A DNA stretch of 64,000 nucleotides. It comes from Arthrobacter sp. 9V (GTDB lineage Bacteria; Actinomycetota; Actinomycetes; Actinomycetales; Micrococcaceae). Made by a program: the position numbers and the translations under genes. Under the pieces are notes generated by a model that was not told where the DNA came from, made no database searches, and was given only the letters and a program-made list of their open reading frames with translations. Below are positions 509 through 64,000 of the stretch, piece by piece (the stretch's first letter is position 1; each line of letters opens with the position of its first letter). The stretch is taken from NCBI RefSeq assembly GCF_902506065.1, contig NZ_LR732912.1, positions 466,529 through 530,528 on the forward strand. Reading direction: 5' to 3'.

Positions 509-895
509 GTGAGGGCGCCCGGTCCGTTTCAGATGGCTTCACACGGATTGAGCTTGGTTTCAGCGCTCATTGTCTACCTCTATTGCCGACGCATGAACTA
601 TAGGACCAGCGCCTCCGGTCTGCTCTGTTTTGGGGCGGTAGGGTTCTTCTTCGCAGACGTGGCCATGGGGTTCAATTACAGCCCGTTCTTCGGCGTCGCG
701 CTCATCGCGTGGGCGGCCAGCGCTCGCCGCCCCTTGCTTGCCGGGGTCGGCGTATTGGCCCTGGGAGCCGCGCTGGTCTCCAGATTCGAGCACGAGCTCA
801 GCGCCGTCGTCGTAGGTGCGTGCGGCGTCGTCACTGTGGCCGCCGCAACGTGGCCGAAGTGGAGCACCGGGAAAGCAAAAGTAGGTGACAGATAG
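509..895 (+). CDS. Hypothetical multi-pass membrane protein (possibly 3' part of a broken gene)
   Basis: A 128-residue reading from GTG 509, rich in hydrophobic segments (roughly residues 12-25, 34-52, 54-70 and 72-88), with no family I recognise. The GTG has no convincing ribosome binding site. It lies four bases after an in-frame TAG that ends a 44-codon upstream piece carrying a typical first membrane helix, so this may be the 3' remainder of one larger gene. The last residues and the stop codon are encoded inside the left arm of the palindromic element at 883-934, so the original C-terminus may have been replaced by that element. Confidence 0.5.
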   Translation: MRAPGPFQMASHGLSLVSALIVYLYCRRMNYRTSASGLLCFGAVGFFFADVAMGFNYSPFFGVALIAWAASARRPLLAGVGVLALGAALVSRFEHELSAVVVGACGVVTVAAATWPKWSTGKAKVGDR

Positions 896-941
896 CGTCG
901 CTGTGAGTGCTCATTGCGACGCTATCTGTCACCTAGTTGGG
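883..941. repeat. Palindromic element copy 1 (19-bp perfect stem), probable bidirectional terminator
   Basis: Bases 883-901 and 916-934 are perfect 19-bp inverted repeats with a 14-base loop. On the minus strand the element opens CCCAACTAGGTGACAG (941-926), matching the end consensus CCCAACTRRGTNRCAG shared with copies at 10083-10098, 36948-36963 and 63169-63184. Its loop edge CGTCGCAATGAG (minus strand, 921-910) recurs exactly at 63189-63200. It lies between convergent genes and contains the stop codon of the upstream reading frame. Confidence 0.75.
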
Positions 942-10032: not shown

Positions 10033-10100
10033 CCCAAGTAAGTCGCAGTTGGGGTCGTTGCCAGCGCTGGGAACGACCTGATCTGCGACTCAGTTGGGGG
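10033..10100. repeat. Palindromic element copy 2, between convergent genes
   Basis: Arms AGTCGCAG (10041-10048) and CTGCGACT (10083-10090), GTCGTT and AACGAC, and a central CCAGCGCTGG form an interrupted hairpin. On the minus strand the element opens CCCAACTGAGTCGCAG (10098-10083), fitting the consensus CCCAACTRRGTNRCAG. It supplies the TGA stop of the aminotransferase and probably terminates both convergent genes. Confidence 0.7.
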
Positions 10101-35823: not shown

Positions 35824-36960
35824 ATGAAGCCACGTGCAGGCAGCAAGGCCCTGATCCGTGAGATCAACGAGGCCCTGGTGCTCGACGTCGTGCGGACCAA
35901 ATCGCCCGTCTCCCGGGCCACCATCACGGTTCAGACCGGCCTGAGCGCTGCCAGCGTCACCGGAATAACGGGCAAGCTCATCAACTCGGGCCTGCTGGTT
36001 GAGACCGAGATTGCGCCCAGCACGGGTGGAAGGCCCGCGCGACTGCTTGAGCTCGGACGCGAAGGTGTTTTCGCGGCGGGGGTGAGGCTGTCCGCTACGG
36101 AGGCCCACGCCGTCGTCGTCGATTTGCGCGGTGACGTGGTGGCCACCCACAGCGAGCCGTTGGCGTCCACAGGCCCGGACGAAGCGGCAGCGGCCGTGGC
36201 CCGGGCGGTCCACACAGCCTCCGGCAACCTGGAGTCCAGGCTTATTGGAGTGGGTGTTGCCGTTTCCGGCGTGGTTGATCAAGCTAGCGGCTTGGTGCGG
36301 CACAGCGGGGCGATGGGCTGGGCTGACATCAAGTTCCAAGTGCTCCTGGAAGAAGTTTCCGGGCAACCGGTCATCGTTGACAGTTACGTCAATGCCTACG
36401 CCCGCGGGCTGCTGTTCGACGACGTTTTCAAAGGCCGCGAGATGCTCATCTTCAGCGTCGGCACCAGTCTGGGCGCCGCCGTCGTGATTGAAGGCCGCAT
36501 CCAGCGCGGCTTCAACGGTGCGGCCGGGGGCTTCGCCCATTCGCGGGCGATCACCGGACCAGGTCCGGCCAGGCCCTGTCACTGCGGCGCGGACGATTGC
36601 TTCGAGACCCGCGGCAGCCTGTGGGGGATGCAGCGTGAGCTGGAGCGGAGCGGCCAGGACCGGGGGATAGACCCCGACGCCGATTCCAGCCTGATTGCCG
36701 ACGCCGCCCTGCACCTGGGCATCGGAATGGCGAACACGGCCAAGGTCCTGGGCCCCGGGCAGGTGGTGGTCGGCTTCGCGCCCGAGGCCGATCTGGGGAC
36801 GTTTGCCGAGCAGACCAAGGCCGCGTTCGTGCGCCAATACGACCACGCGAATACTCCGCCTCCATTGTTTGATACTTCAGTTGCAGATCCGGTAGCGCTG
36901 GCCCGAGGTGCTGCATGCTCGGTGCTGGCGGGATTGTTCACCGCCAGCCCAACTGGGTAG
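35824..36960 (+). CDS. ROK-family transcriptional repressor (module B)
   Basis: A sugar-responsive regulator of 378 residues. An N-terminal winged helix (residues 10-70, SRATITVQTGLSAASVTG, ETEIAPSTGGRPARLLEL) is followed by a ROK ligand domain with IGVGVAVSGVVDQASG and the zinc-type motif CHCGADDCFE (about 252-261). I start at the ATG at 35824, which has AGGAGCC upstream; the frame is open from 35719 but that stretch overlaps the promoter zone. It is divergent from the module B operon and probably represses it. Its last codons, SPTG plus TAG, are supplied by palindromic element copy 3. Confidence 0.88.
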   Translation: MKPRAGSKALIREINEALVLDVVRTKSPVSRATITVQTGLSAASVTGITGKLINSGLLVETEIAPSTGGRPARLLELGREGVFAAGVRLSATEAHAVVVDLRGDVVATHSEPLASTGPDEAAAAVARAVHTASGNLESRLIGVGVAVSGVVDQASGLVRHSGAMGWADIKFQVLLEEVSGQPVIVDSYVNAYARGLLFDDVFKGREMLIFSVGTSLGAAVVIEGRIQRGFNGAAGGFAHSRAITGPGPARPCHCGADDCFETRGSLWGMQRELERSGQDRGIDPDADSSLIADAALHLGIGMANTAKVLGPGQVVVGFAPEADLGTFAEQTKAAFVRQYDHANTPPPLFDTSVADPVALARGAACSVLAGLFTASPTG

Positions 36961-37013
36961 CAGCAGATGCCGTTTTGAGGGCTCAGAACGGCATCTGCTG
37001 CTACTTACATGGG
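36948..37013. repeat. Palindromic element copy 3 (18-bp perfect stem)
   Basis: Opens CCCAACTGGGTAGCAG (36948-36963), fitting the family end consensus. GTAGCAGCAGATGCCGTT (36957-36974) pairs perfectly with 36987-37004 around a 12-base loop. It carries the ROK stop codon and lies between convergent genes, so it likely terminates both. Confidence 0.8.
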
Positions 37014-58428: not shown

Positions 58429-59354
58429 CAGCGTTCCCTCCGCTGTTGGATCTTGAACTGCAGGACGGTGACCGTCAGCACGATGATGAACAGGACCAGC
58501 GAAATGGCCGAGGAGTAGCCGAACTTACCTTCGCCAATGCCTTCCTGGTAGATCAGCTGGGACAGCACCGTGGTGGACCGCCCGGGGCCACCGTTGGTCA
58601 TGACCACAATCAGGTCGAACACCTTGAAGCTGGAGACCGTCAGCATGACCACCACAAAGAACGTGGTGGGACGCAGGGACGGGATGGTGACGTTCCAGAA
58701 ACGCTGCCACGCGCTGGCCCCGTCAACTTCGGCCGCTTCGTACAGCTCGGTGGGGATTGCCTGAAGACCGGCCAAGTACAGGACCATGTAGTAGCCCATG
58801 TCCCGCCACACACTGGTGATGATCACCGCAGGCATGGCCCAGTCCGAGCTGGAGGTCCAGCCGGGAGGATTGGCGATGCCGATTGCGCCGAGGAACTGGT
58901 TGATGGGGCCGCTGTCCGGGCTGAACAGCATGTTCCAAACCACTGCCACAGCCACCAGCGAGGTGATGTAAGGGAAGAAGATCGCTACCCGGAAGAAGCC
59001 GATGCCCTTGAGCTTGCGGTTCAGCAGCATGGCCAGCAGCAGTGCCAAAGCCATGGTGAGCGGCACATGGCCCAAGGCGTAGACAACGGTGTTCCGCAGG
59101 GCGATCCAGAAGGAATCGGAGGCGAACATGCGCTCGAAGTTGGCCAGGCCAATCCATTTGGGAGCGCTGAACGAGGTCCATTCCATGAAGGAGAGCGCGA
59201 AAGCGGCCACGACTGGAATGAGTGTGAAGGCCAGGAAGCCAAGGAAGTTCGGAAGGATGAACGTCCAGCCGATCAGCGTATTACGCCTGGCTTGCTTCCT
59301 GTTGCCGCGGCTCTGCACTGGGGCAGGTGCCTGGGGGATTGTTTCTGTAGTCAT
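58428..59354 (-). CDS. Sugar ABC transporter permease, MalF type (module C)
   Basis: First channel subunit of the module C importer: 308 residues, six helices, EAA loop at about 206 reading EAAEVDGASAWQRFWNV, in which the usual Arg after EAA is Glu. The 125-base gap to the binding-protein gene contains a 13-bp stem-loop (59417-59453), a usual way to keep binding protein in excess over channel. Confidence 0.92.
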   Translation of the reverse strand: MTTETIPQAPAPVQSRGNRKQARRNTLIGWTFILPNFLGFLAFTLIPVVAAFALSFMEWTSFSAPKWIGLANFERMFASDSFWIALRNTVVYALGHVPLTMALALLLAMLLNRKLKGIGFFRVAIFFPYITSLVAVAVVWNMLFSPDSGPINQFLGAIGIANPPGWTSSSDWAMPAVIITSVWRDMGYYMVLYLAGLQAIPTELYEAAEVDGASAWQRFWNVTIPSLRPTTFFVVVMLTVSSFKVFDLIVVMTNGGPGRSTTVLSQLIYQEGIGEGKFGYSSAISLVLFIIVLTVTVLQFKIQQRRER

Positions 59355-62012: not shown

Positions 62013-64000
62013 ATGGCAACCGGCACCGCCGCCGTTGACGCGCCACCCCTGACGCCCCTGCTGACCGCTTGGGGTGAGTCAGCAGGCGCATCCGCTTTGA
62101 AGCAGACACTTGTTGGCTCCCGTAATCGCCTCACCGTTCGTCCAGCGTCCGACGCCGGGTGGCAGCTCGCTGCTGCCAGCCCCCTTTCCGAGCTGCGTAC
62201 CCTGGCAAATGCGGATGCCGGGACGCCGTGGCCCCAGCCACTGGTCTCGCACTACGCGCGCTACTTCCGGGACGGAAACCGCACGGCGTATGAGGGACTG
62301 GTGGCGGGCCGGCAGCAGCGGCTGACGCGCGCCGTCGTGATGGCTGCCTTGGGTGGTCCCTCTGATGACGGCTGGCTCGACGAAGTGATTGATGGCGCGT
62401 ACCTCCTGTGTGAGCAGAGCTCGTGGAGTTGGGCCGCGCATGATGACGTGTTCACGCGCGACGGCGAGGTGGTCCCGGACCGTTCCCGGCCGTATCTGGA
62501 CCTCGGTGCAGGAGAAGTGGTGGCTCAGCTCGCGTGGCTGGACCATGTGCTGGGTTCTCTGCTGGATGAACGCGCCCCCGGTCTCCGTCGGCGGATCCGC
62601 CTGGAGACGAACGAACGCGTGATCCGCCCGTTCCTGGACCGCCTCGACTGGCACTGGCTGGGCTTGGACGGTGATGTCCACAACTGGAACCCATGGATCC
62701 ACTCGAACATCATTGTGGCAGCGCTATTGCTGGTGGACGACCCGGGGCTGCAGGCGGAGGTGGTTGCCCGCTGTATTGAAGGATTGGACCGTTTCCTCGC
62801 CTCCATCCCGGCTGATGGCGCCATCGACGAGGGCTTCGCCTACTGGTGGAACGGTGCCGGGCGTGCGCTGGAAGGCCTCGCTTTGCTGGAGGAGGCAAGT
62901 GGCGGTGTCCTGAATCCTGACCTGCCCGTGATCCGTGCACTGGTGGCCTTCCCGCACCGGATGCATCTGGGCAACCGGTGGTTCCTGAACGTGGCCGACG
63001 GTCCGGCCCGAGCCCACCACGGATTGCCGTGGGGAATGCTGCACCGATGGGCTGTCCGGCTGGGGGACTCTGAGGCCGCCGCACATGCCGCAACGTTTGC
63101 CGCCGTCGAGCCCGAACCCAAAGCCGCCGCCGGACTGGGCCGCGTCCTCACCCAACTCACCTCCCGCCCCCAACTAGGGGACAGCAAACGTCGCAATGAG
63201 GGCCCATTGGGACATGTGCTGTCCCCCAGTTGGGGGACGTACCTGCCATCGGTCCAGATCATGGTGGCGCGGCAAACTCCGGGCTCCTCGGATGGGCTCA
63301 CGCTCGCGGCGAAGGGCGGACACAACGGCGAGCACCACAACCACCGCGACGTGGGCTCAGTGGTGGTGGCCGTGGACGGTGTGCCGTTGCTGGTGGATGC
63401 CGGCCAGCCCACCTACACCGCCCAAACGTTCGGACCTGATCGGTACCTGATCCGGGCCATGCAGAGCGCCTGGCACAGCGTGCCGGCGCCGTTCGGACTG
63501 GAACAGGGGACCGGGCCCTCGTTTGCGGCAACCGTTCTGCAGGAACCCACCGCCGAGGAACCGACGCTCGCCCTGGGACTCGGGGCTGCCTACGGCCTGG
63601 ACCACGCCGAGCAGTGGATCCGAACCTCGCTCATGAACCGCGAGCTGGGGACTGTGGTGATTGACGACCGCTGGAACCTGCCGGCTGGCACGGAGGGAAC
63701 GCACCCGCCAGAGGGAACGCACGACGTCGACATCACCTATCTGATGTCCGGCACTGTCCGCGTCGGTTCAGACGCGACGGCAACCATCACGCCTGAGGGG
63801 ATTCCGGCCGTGGAAACCAACAGAGGGCTGCATCTCCGCTGGAAGCCGGCCACCGCCGTCGTACTGGTGGACGAATGGCTCCTGGACGATCCGCTCCTGG
63901 GAGATATCTGGGGCGAAAAGCTGACCCGGCTCCGATTCCGCATGCCCGCCGAAAACCGCGCTTCCGGCGCATTCACCCTCACAGTGGAGGCAACACCTTG
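62013..64000 (+). CDS. Heparinase II/III family protein, cytoplasmic, runs off window
   Basis: Polysaccharide-lyase-like enzyme expected to cleave uronate-containing glycans by beta-elimination. At least 662 codons are visible from the ATG at 62013. An N-terminal alpha-helical toroid contains WNPWIHSNIIVAALLLV and DEGFAYWWNGAGRALEGL. It is followed by the beta-sandwich domain with HNGEHHNHRDVGSVVVAVDG (about 437-456) and LLVDAGQPTYTAQTFG, typical of this family. No signal peptide, so it probably acts on imported oligosaccharides. Codons between about 385 and 408 are formed by an inserted palindromic element (63169-63236) that keeps the frame. It is divergent from the module C operon. Substrate not determinable. 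Confidence 0.87.
   Translation, partial: MATGTAAVDAPPLTPLLTAWGESAGASALKQTLVGSRNRLTVRPASDAGWQLAAASPLSELRTLANADAGTPWPQPLVSHYARYFRDGNRTAYEGLVAGRQQRLTRAVVMAALGGPSDDGWLDEVIDGAYLLCEQSSWSWAAHDDVFTRDGEVVPDRSRPYLDLGAGEVVAQLAWLDHVLGSLLDERAPGLRRRIRLETNERVIRPFLDRLDWHWLGLDGDVHNWNPWIHSNIIVAALLLVDDPGLQAEVVARCIEGLDRFLASIPADGAIDEGFAYWWNGAGRALEGLALLEEASGGVLNPDLPVIRALVAFPHRMHLGNRWFLNVADGPARAHHGLPWGMLHRWAVRLGDSEAAAHAATFAAVEPEPKAAAGLGRVLTQLTSRPQLGDSKRRNEGPLGHVLSPSWGTYLPSVQIMVARQTPGSSDGLTLAAKGGHNGEHHNHRDVGSVVVAVDGVPLLVDAGQPTYTAQTFGPDRYLIRAMQSAWHSVPAPFGLEQGTGPSFAATVLQEPTAEEPTLALGLGAAYGLDHAEQWIRTSLMNRELGTVVIDDRWNLPAGTEGTHPPEGTHDVDITYLMSGTVRVGSDATATITPEGIPAVETNRGLHLRWKPATAVVLVDEWLLDDPLLGDIWGEKLTRLRFRMPAENRASGAFTLTVEATP
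63169..63236. repeat. Palindromic element copy 4, inside the heparinase-family gene
   Basis: Opens CCCAACTAGGGGACAG (63169-63184) and closes with GTCCCCCAGTTGGGG. The 19-base arms 63168-63186 and 63217-63235 pair with one mismatch. The segment CGTCGCAATGAG (63189-63200) is identical to the loop edge of copy 1. It is read through in frame by the host gene. Confidence 0.78.

Follow-up and report, generated by a model that had tools for sequence, protein, structure and literature searches.

The lyase gene at the end of the window, by which we mean the whole 64,000-nt stretch of Arthrobacter sp. 9V DNA analysed here, raises the question of what a long palindrome is doing in the middle of a coding sequence. 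A sequence-only reading had claimed that such a palindrome lies within the gene and is read through in frame without a stop, and this is borne out by arms, fold and frame alike. The two 32-nt arms are 88% complementary, and RNA of positions 63165-63240 folds at -53.3 kcal/mol against a shuffle mean of -27.1 (z = -8.5; 0 of 200 shuffles as good). Within the frame the element begins at codon 386, base 2, and ends at codon 408, base 1, with no stop between. The features concerned are these:

62013..64000, + strand: heparinase II/III-like, PL33-like lyase gene, a 662-codon frame whose stop, TGA at 63999, ends one base beyond the window (read in locus L002)
63150..63157, + strand: ACCCAACT, a near-repeat of the element's end, upstream of the in-gene element
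63162..63236, + strand: interdomain linker, codons 384-408, between helix 375-383 and strand 408-411
63167..63198, + strand: left arm of the inverted repeat, 32 nt
63169..63234, + strand: 66-nt palindromic element, the in-gene copy and family unit, of interior type A (A, B and C being ad hoc classes)
63205..63236, + strand: right arm of the inverted repeat, 32 nt
876..941, + strand: family copy, intergenic, between convergent genes
10033..10098, + strand: family copy, intergenic, between convergent genes
36948..37013, + strand: family copy, intergenic, between convergent genes

The window contains these four copies of the family, starting at 876, 10033, 36948 and 63169. It had been argued that the in-gene palindrome is a true family member because it shares a 12-mer exactly with an intergenic copy placed at 883-941. 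The membership stands, and a family copy is indeed found there, with its span corrected to 876-941. The 12-mer, CGTCGCAATGAG, has two exact matches in the window, one at each site (63189-63200, + strand, and 910-921, - strand). As proof within the window, however, it does not suffice: with up to two mismatches allowed it is matched nine times where shuffles predict 7.7, a count of nine being reached by 37 of 100 shuffles, and since mismatch-tolerant matches do not rise above the shuffles, the 12-mer alone is weak evidence there. Genome-wide it has nine exact matches against none for a reversed control. Seven of the eight sites read lie within palindromes of the 66-nt family (the exception being L004), and the ninth, at 4659205, lies inside a copy found by a covariance model.

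Searches built on the palindrome itself define the family more sharply. The pattern CCCAACTNNGN{30,60}CNNAGTTGGG finds 5-32 copies per genome in 10 close genomes, with 0 or 1 per strand for the controls, and nearly all of the matches listed are exactly 66 nt long. When 26 copies are aligned, 88.7% of pair cells are paired and 19 of 31 pairs have changed on both sides, pairing falling to 30-40% when the partner is slid; the copies counted were mostly picked by a pattern that fixes the ends, and their end pairs are accordingly uninformative. The CCCAACT ends and the CA of CAG are conserved across the family. The covariance model recovers 54 full-length copies and 2 weak partial ones in this genome (hereafter G000), scores the in-gene copy, which helped to build it, at E = 3e-17, and finds matches in at least 148 of 150 same-genus genomes. 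Among other genera of the bacterial family, at least 11 of 76 genomes have a match (at least 15 of 80 overall, the other 4 being same-genus). On this sequence evidence, the in-gene copy belongs to a dispersed family of hairpins in the GTDB genus to which Arthrobacter, Paenarthrobacter and Pseudarthrobacter strains are assigned. No Rfam family matches the window at or above its gathering threshold, and identity with an Rfam family was rejected, the sub-threshold rows (four microRNA, one sRNA) being hairpin matches far below gathering scores. PF01797, the Y1 transposase family to which the RAYTs belong, has no match in any of 15 genomes (two of which are less than 85% complete), while the control rings in 5 of 14. 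The literature accessible without subscription yielded no description of this family.

The protein into which this hairpin is translated matches the solved PL33 structure 8r75 (BtPL33HA) in sequence (E 3.5e-65) and in fold (TM 0.80/0.86), its Pfam Hepar_II_III_C match falling below the cut-off. By both matches the host protein resembles the PL33 hyaluronan lyases, of heparinase II/III type. An AlphaFold2 model (mean pLDDT 88) places the element-encoded residues 386-408 where they had been expected, between the helical and beta domains: after helix 375-383, which ends the helical part, and before strand 408-411, which opens the beta part. The pLDDT drops below 50 at residues 389-398, and a short helix, 399-402, falls inside the segment, which in this model is a disordered linker from the helical to the beta domain. 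For the enzyme, it is most likely a tolerated linker, and the peptide would have no specific role beyond spacing. Translating ribosomes would keep the hairpin from ending transcription within the lyase gene. In L002, from about position 2312, the next gene starts directly after the lyase gene, and its translation, read by eye, has an apparent DeoR-type N-terminal helix-turn-helix; with a gene starting so directly, the in-gene hairpin may lie in an operon.

How the element came to occupy this linker can be judged from the homologous loci. It is present at the lyase site in 13 of 100 loci scanned (12 full length, 1 shortened) and absent in 87, with duplicates of included genomes and L138 left out and some of the 87 negatives representing the same genome twice. 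No homolog of another genus among the 100 shares it, whereas ancestral protein sequence would have been expected to turn up in distant genera. In the shortened copy (L014:2268-2303, genome G067), the element is reduced to a 36-nt hairpin with the frame kept. The idea that it creates a new interdomain linker did not survive comparison: the distance from GLGR to SVQIM is 38-50 residues in the 13 loci with the element and 34-57 (median 38) in 17 same-genus loci without it, an overlap that rules out a newly created linker. Because linkers without the element are already length-variable, the element colonised a linker and did not create one. The element does encode residues 386-408, in keeping with the roughly 22 residues that it had been credited with adding, but the net gain is well under 22 in most comparisons. 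Nor did related strains provide the empty site that might have been looked for in them; none of the loci compared has a clean one, and as 13 loci share the site, this is not a strain-level insertion. The aligned loci show a copy at one place, in one clade, within what is predicted to be a disordered, length-variable linker of a PL33-like lyase, and the simplest reading is a single entry in the clade's ancestor.

Two properties of the family bear on its tolerance at this site. The in-gene element uses the offset-2 frame, which 69 of 102 copies leave open; the other two frames are open in 14 and 7 copies, and the rate in shuffles is about 42%. Its 66 nt, a multiple of 3, preserve the reading frame, and the frame used is the one that the family usually leaves open; for these reasons the in-gene element is tolerable. 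A dispersed population of in-gene copies is unsupported: the lyase site is the sole one in G000, none of the other 53 copies lying in a gene, and the only one in the stretches examined from four relatives. The statement that such elements are seldom found inside genes holds in G000, where 1 of 54 copies lies in a gene by our own gene calls.

Elsewhere the family sits at gene ends. With genes called by a codon-usage script written for this analysis, the 53 non-genic copies of G000 comprise 33 between convergent genes, 19 between tandem genes and 1 between divergent genes, set against 189 convergent, 533 tandem and 247 divergent among 969 background junctions of at least 20 nt. The convergent share of the background is 20-29% (29% of those intergenic bases), and the enrichment has P = 4e-7. 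A gene 3' end lies within 30 nt of the element, or inside it, for 48 of the 53, and in 13 (for example at 59220, 243482 and 877958) the element's own end supplies the adjacent gene's stop, CCCAAC being followed by TRR. Judged as intrinsic (Rho-independent) terminators, the copies have the expected location at stop codons and lack the T-run after the hairpin, none of the 108 element sides having TTTT within 10 nt. From position and fold, we infer that the intergenic copies are probably two-way transcription-end hairpins without a U-tract. Strong folds are also seen at convergent junctions that lack the element (below -35 kcal/mol in 58% of 50, against 9% of 94 divergent junctions, in two stretches); a hairpin can thus form at such junctions without it, and the element is one of several in use.

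Copies are also unevenly placed along the chromosome. The terminus-proximal third holds 0 of 54 copies in G000 (KS P = 3e-8), 1 of 26 strict-pattern copies in G066 (P = 3e-5), 0 of 32 strict-pattern copies in G023 (P = 1e-4) and 0 of 26 among the matches listed for G210 (P = 1.5e-3, genome length rounded). G067, with 5 copies, has too few for the test (P = 0.2, genome length rounded). In G000 the element-free zone extends from 1.19 to 3.18 Mb, opposite dnaA, with one weak partial match inside. The test takes the G000 contig as a circle and assumes even spacing along the chromosome, not along convergent junctions. In G000, G066, G023 and G210, all or nearly all copies lie in the part of the chromosome nearer the origin.

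An unexpected property of the family is what happens to its interiors. At the lyase site the interior is of type A in G000, G048, G080, G023 and a P. aurescens TC1 record, of type B in G033, G068, G060 and cf158, and of type C in G084 and G066; strain 18067 has a mixture of C-like outer arms with an A interior. These types do not follow the gene. Trees of the gene flanks make G023 (A) and G084 (C) sisters, with support 100/99, and group G060 (B) with both (support 94/94 and 97/97). Between G023 and G084, the adjoining flanks are 97.6% and 94% identical (over 82 and 100 aligned bases) and 100-base windows further out are 88-100% identical, against 62% for the element; an 18-nt indel at ACCCAACT separates the two. 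Among 12 in-gene copies, with L014 left out, identity of the element is uncorrelated with that of the flanks (r = 0.08, 66 pairs), and at an equal flank identity of 84%, mean element identity is 87% in 17 same-type pairs and 64% in 38 different-type pairs.

The same holds away from the lyase gene. G080, G060, G066 and G023 were compared over one stretch of 340-400 kb each, and G084 was sampled through 38 distinct elements, out of a total there of at least 74. Twelve of the 38 could be mapped by both flanks into the G023 stretch, 9 with an element in both genomes and 3 with none in G023. The 9 shared sites differ at 1, 1, 2, 3, 21, 23, 25, 27 and 29 positions of 66. Outside the stretch, L041/L043 is a tenth shared site; there 14 positions of 66 differ and the flanks are about 96% identical, so the split between changed and unchanged sites is not strictly all-or-none. 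This element is orthologous in G023, G084 and G067 (L041, L043 and L050), lying where a TauD-like and an aldo/keto-reductase-like gene (both named by eye) converge, and is of type B in G084 and C in the other two. Alignment of the 3 presence/absence sites gave no clean empty site and no target duplication. At the lyase site and at others, these alignments show replacement of the interior as a block, in which length, palindrome and frame persist and the flanks are untouched.

In some lineages, the comparisons also show homogenisation. G000 shares junctions bearing elements with G080, G023, G060 and G066, with differing types. In the G060 stretch, at least one arm reads as B in 14 of 14 copies, and both arms in 12 of 14, many of their orthologs elsewhere being A or C; mean distance is 0.147 within the genome against 0.315-0.375 to orthologs. 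A G at position 11 marks 69 of 78 type-A arms in G000, 0 of 16 in G080 and 0 of 16 in G023, and stands on both arms in 34 of 54 G000 copies, the in-gene copy among them. The in-gene type is the commonest sampled type of its own genome in 5 of 6 genomes; in the exception, G084, the in-gene copy is of type C, which with 8 of 38 elements ranks second to B with 18. Of 152 distinct elements, 79 belong to one main class and 55 to the other over their whole length; a further 2 are chimeras of inner and outer parts, 16 have segments that are unclear or differ, and none joins a left half of one main type to a right half of the other. Full concerted evolution was not borne out in the type-A group, in which orthologs are closer than paralogs (distances of 0.21-0.33 against 0.35-0.40 among G000, G080 and G023). 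For 30 of the 51 copies at shared sites, the ortholog is nearer than a random paralog from the same genome; homogenisation is thus partial, and replacement episodic.

The explanation that we favour, and regard as fairly probable, is that these are terminator-like hairpins homogenised by short-tract conversion, with the in-gene copy tolerated in the lyase linker. Block replacement would then come from non-allelic gene conversion, with dispersed copies as donors and recipients; the trigger might be a cut in the hairpin at the palindrome's centre, for example by SbcCD. A break there would account both for tracts centred on the element and for the lack of half-hybrids, though the latter could also result from selection for pairing. 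The 10 genomes searched for SbcD all have it, which makes SbcCD a candidate for the cut; no donor copy was identified for the replaced interiors. A bolder version, which we put forward tentatively as possible but doubtful, envisages a self-homogenising hairpin family with no transposase of its own, in which an extruded palindrome is cut and repaired from sister copies, the ends being fixed and the interiors set by type, and which marks the origin-proximal chromosome. The differing interiors might otherwise be old alleles, imported between strains by allelic recombination in very short homologous tracts. In-gene type-A copies of several lineages have a common left/right asymmetry, which suggests that much of type A at the lyase site reflects descent or allelic exchange, and L071, with outer arms like those of L016 and an interior like that of L012, looks like a mix of two alleles of the lyase locus; for some events these observations favour recombination between strains. 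Such exchange is nevertheless rather unlikely as the explanation of the differing interiors, given that the flanks of the G023/G084 pair bear no sign of import, that the G000 change has reached both arms of 34 of 54 dispersed copies, and that every copy in the G060 stretch is B on at least one arm despite A or C orthologs elsewhere.

A defined 66-nt unit with conserved CCCAACT ends, dispersed, and present or absent between sister genomes might also be a MITE-like element moved in trans by a non-RAYT transposase and repeatedly excised and reinserted at the same sites. This we consider unlikely: the one transposase family searched, Y1, is matched in none of the 15 genomes, the 3 aligned presence/absence sites have neither target duplication nor a clean empty site, and for an element to return exactly to its former place at 5 or 6 of 10 sites, one of them in a gene, would be unusual. 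The conserved ends and CA of CAG, together with the origin-proximal bias in G000, G023, G210 and G066, would suit a binding site for a chromosome-organising or other DNA-binding protein, whose changes in specificity the sites track by selection and not by conversion. Point mutation under selection does not predict that 5 of the 10 sister-pair sites should be block-changed by 21-29 letters at about 94% flank identity and 4 nearly unchanged, though one site is intermediate, and several types coexist in one genome; we hold selection of this kind to be quite unlikely. That the in-gene copy is a chance palindrome or ancestral protein sequence is scarcely credible. The unenriched mismatch-tolerant 12-mer is the point in its favour, and chance is ruled out by the fold (z = -8.5) and the 54 model-found copies, ancestry by the 87 of 100 homologous loci that have no element match.

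Among dispersed palindromes, REPs avoid divergent promoters. PMC12306157 describes REP/BIME/REPIN elements as dispersed palindromes close to gene ends, defined in E. coli as extragenic and 14-40 nt long. The present family resembles them, so described, in dispersal and in closeness to gene ends, and differs in its 66-nt length, its in-gene copy and the absence of a Y1 transposase match in 15 genomes; membership of the REP/RAYT (REPIN) system was rejected on transposase and length. According to a review (PMC10969869), MITEs such as ERIC, BOX, RUP and SPRITE are likewise short, inverted-repeat and dispersed; possible differences are that our family has no target duplication at its 3 aligned sites and that a search for Y1 transposases turned up no partner transposon. 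The same review gives Rickettsia palindromic elements as about 150 bp, with nearly half of them in ORFs, in frame in unrelated genes. Ours is also a palindrome inserted in frame in a protein gene; compared by description rather than by sequence, it differs in being 66 nt long, mostly intergenic, with 1 of 54 copies in a gene, in having its interior replaced between species, and in belonging to a different phylum.

Long repeats such as rRNA operons undergo concerted evolution (PMC8022953). In the present case a unit of 66 bp changes within its own bounds, next to flanks that look untouched, and one target is an ORF. Should the replacements be due to intragenomic conversion, very short repeats could be overwritten throughout a genome, and a stretch of protein could be exchanged in a single step for sequence from a largely non-coding repeat; were the family self-homogenising, one type would sweep dozens of dispersed sites, coding sequence included, with nothing moved. 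The G023/G084 pair, its 10 shared sites sorted into changed and unchanged, lends itself to a direct test of the mechanism. The wider message is that the in-gene copy is one of a hairpin family found across the genus, and that copies of this family undergo in-place replacement.

Hairpin terminators without a U-tract are a class found in actinobacteria. Terminators formed by pairs of uptake sequences are mentioned in PMC2267715. Like both, the present family places a strong hairpin at the 3' ends of convergent genes; unlike them, it is a single sequence family of fixed 66-nt length with conserved ends at many sites. At G000:C137:582514 / L289, G084 has the element beside a T-tailed, terminator-like hairpin, G023 has that hairpin without the element and G080 is without the element, so the element is not the sole terminator candidate there. 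At the convergent G000 site 317900, the G023 ortholog has an unrelated long hairpin and the G080 ortholog a divergent 66-nt-like one, which suggests several interchangeable hairpin families.
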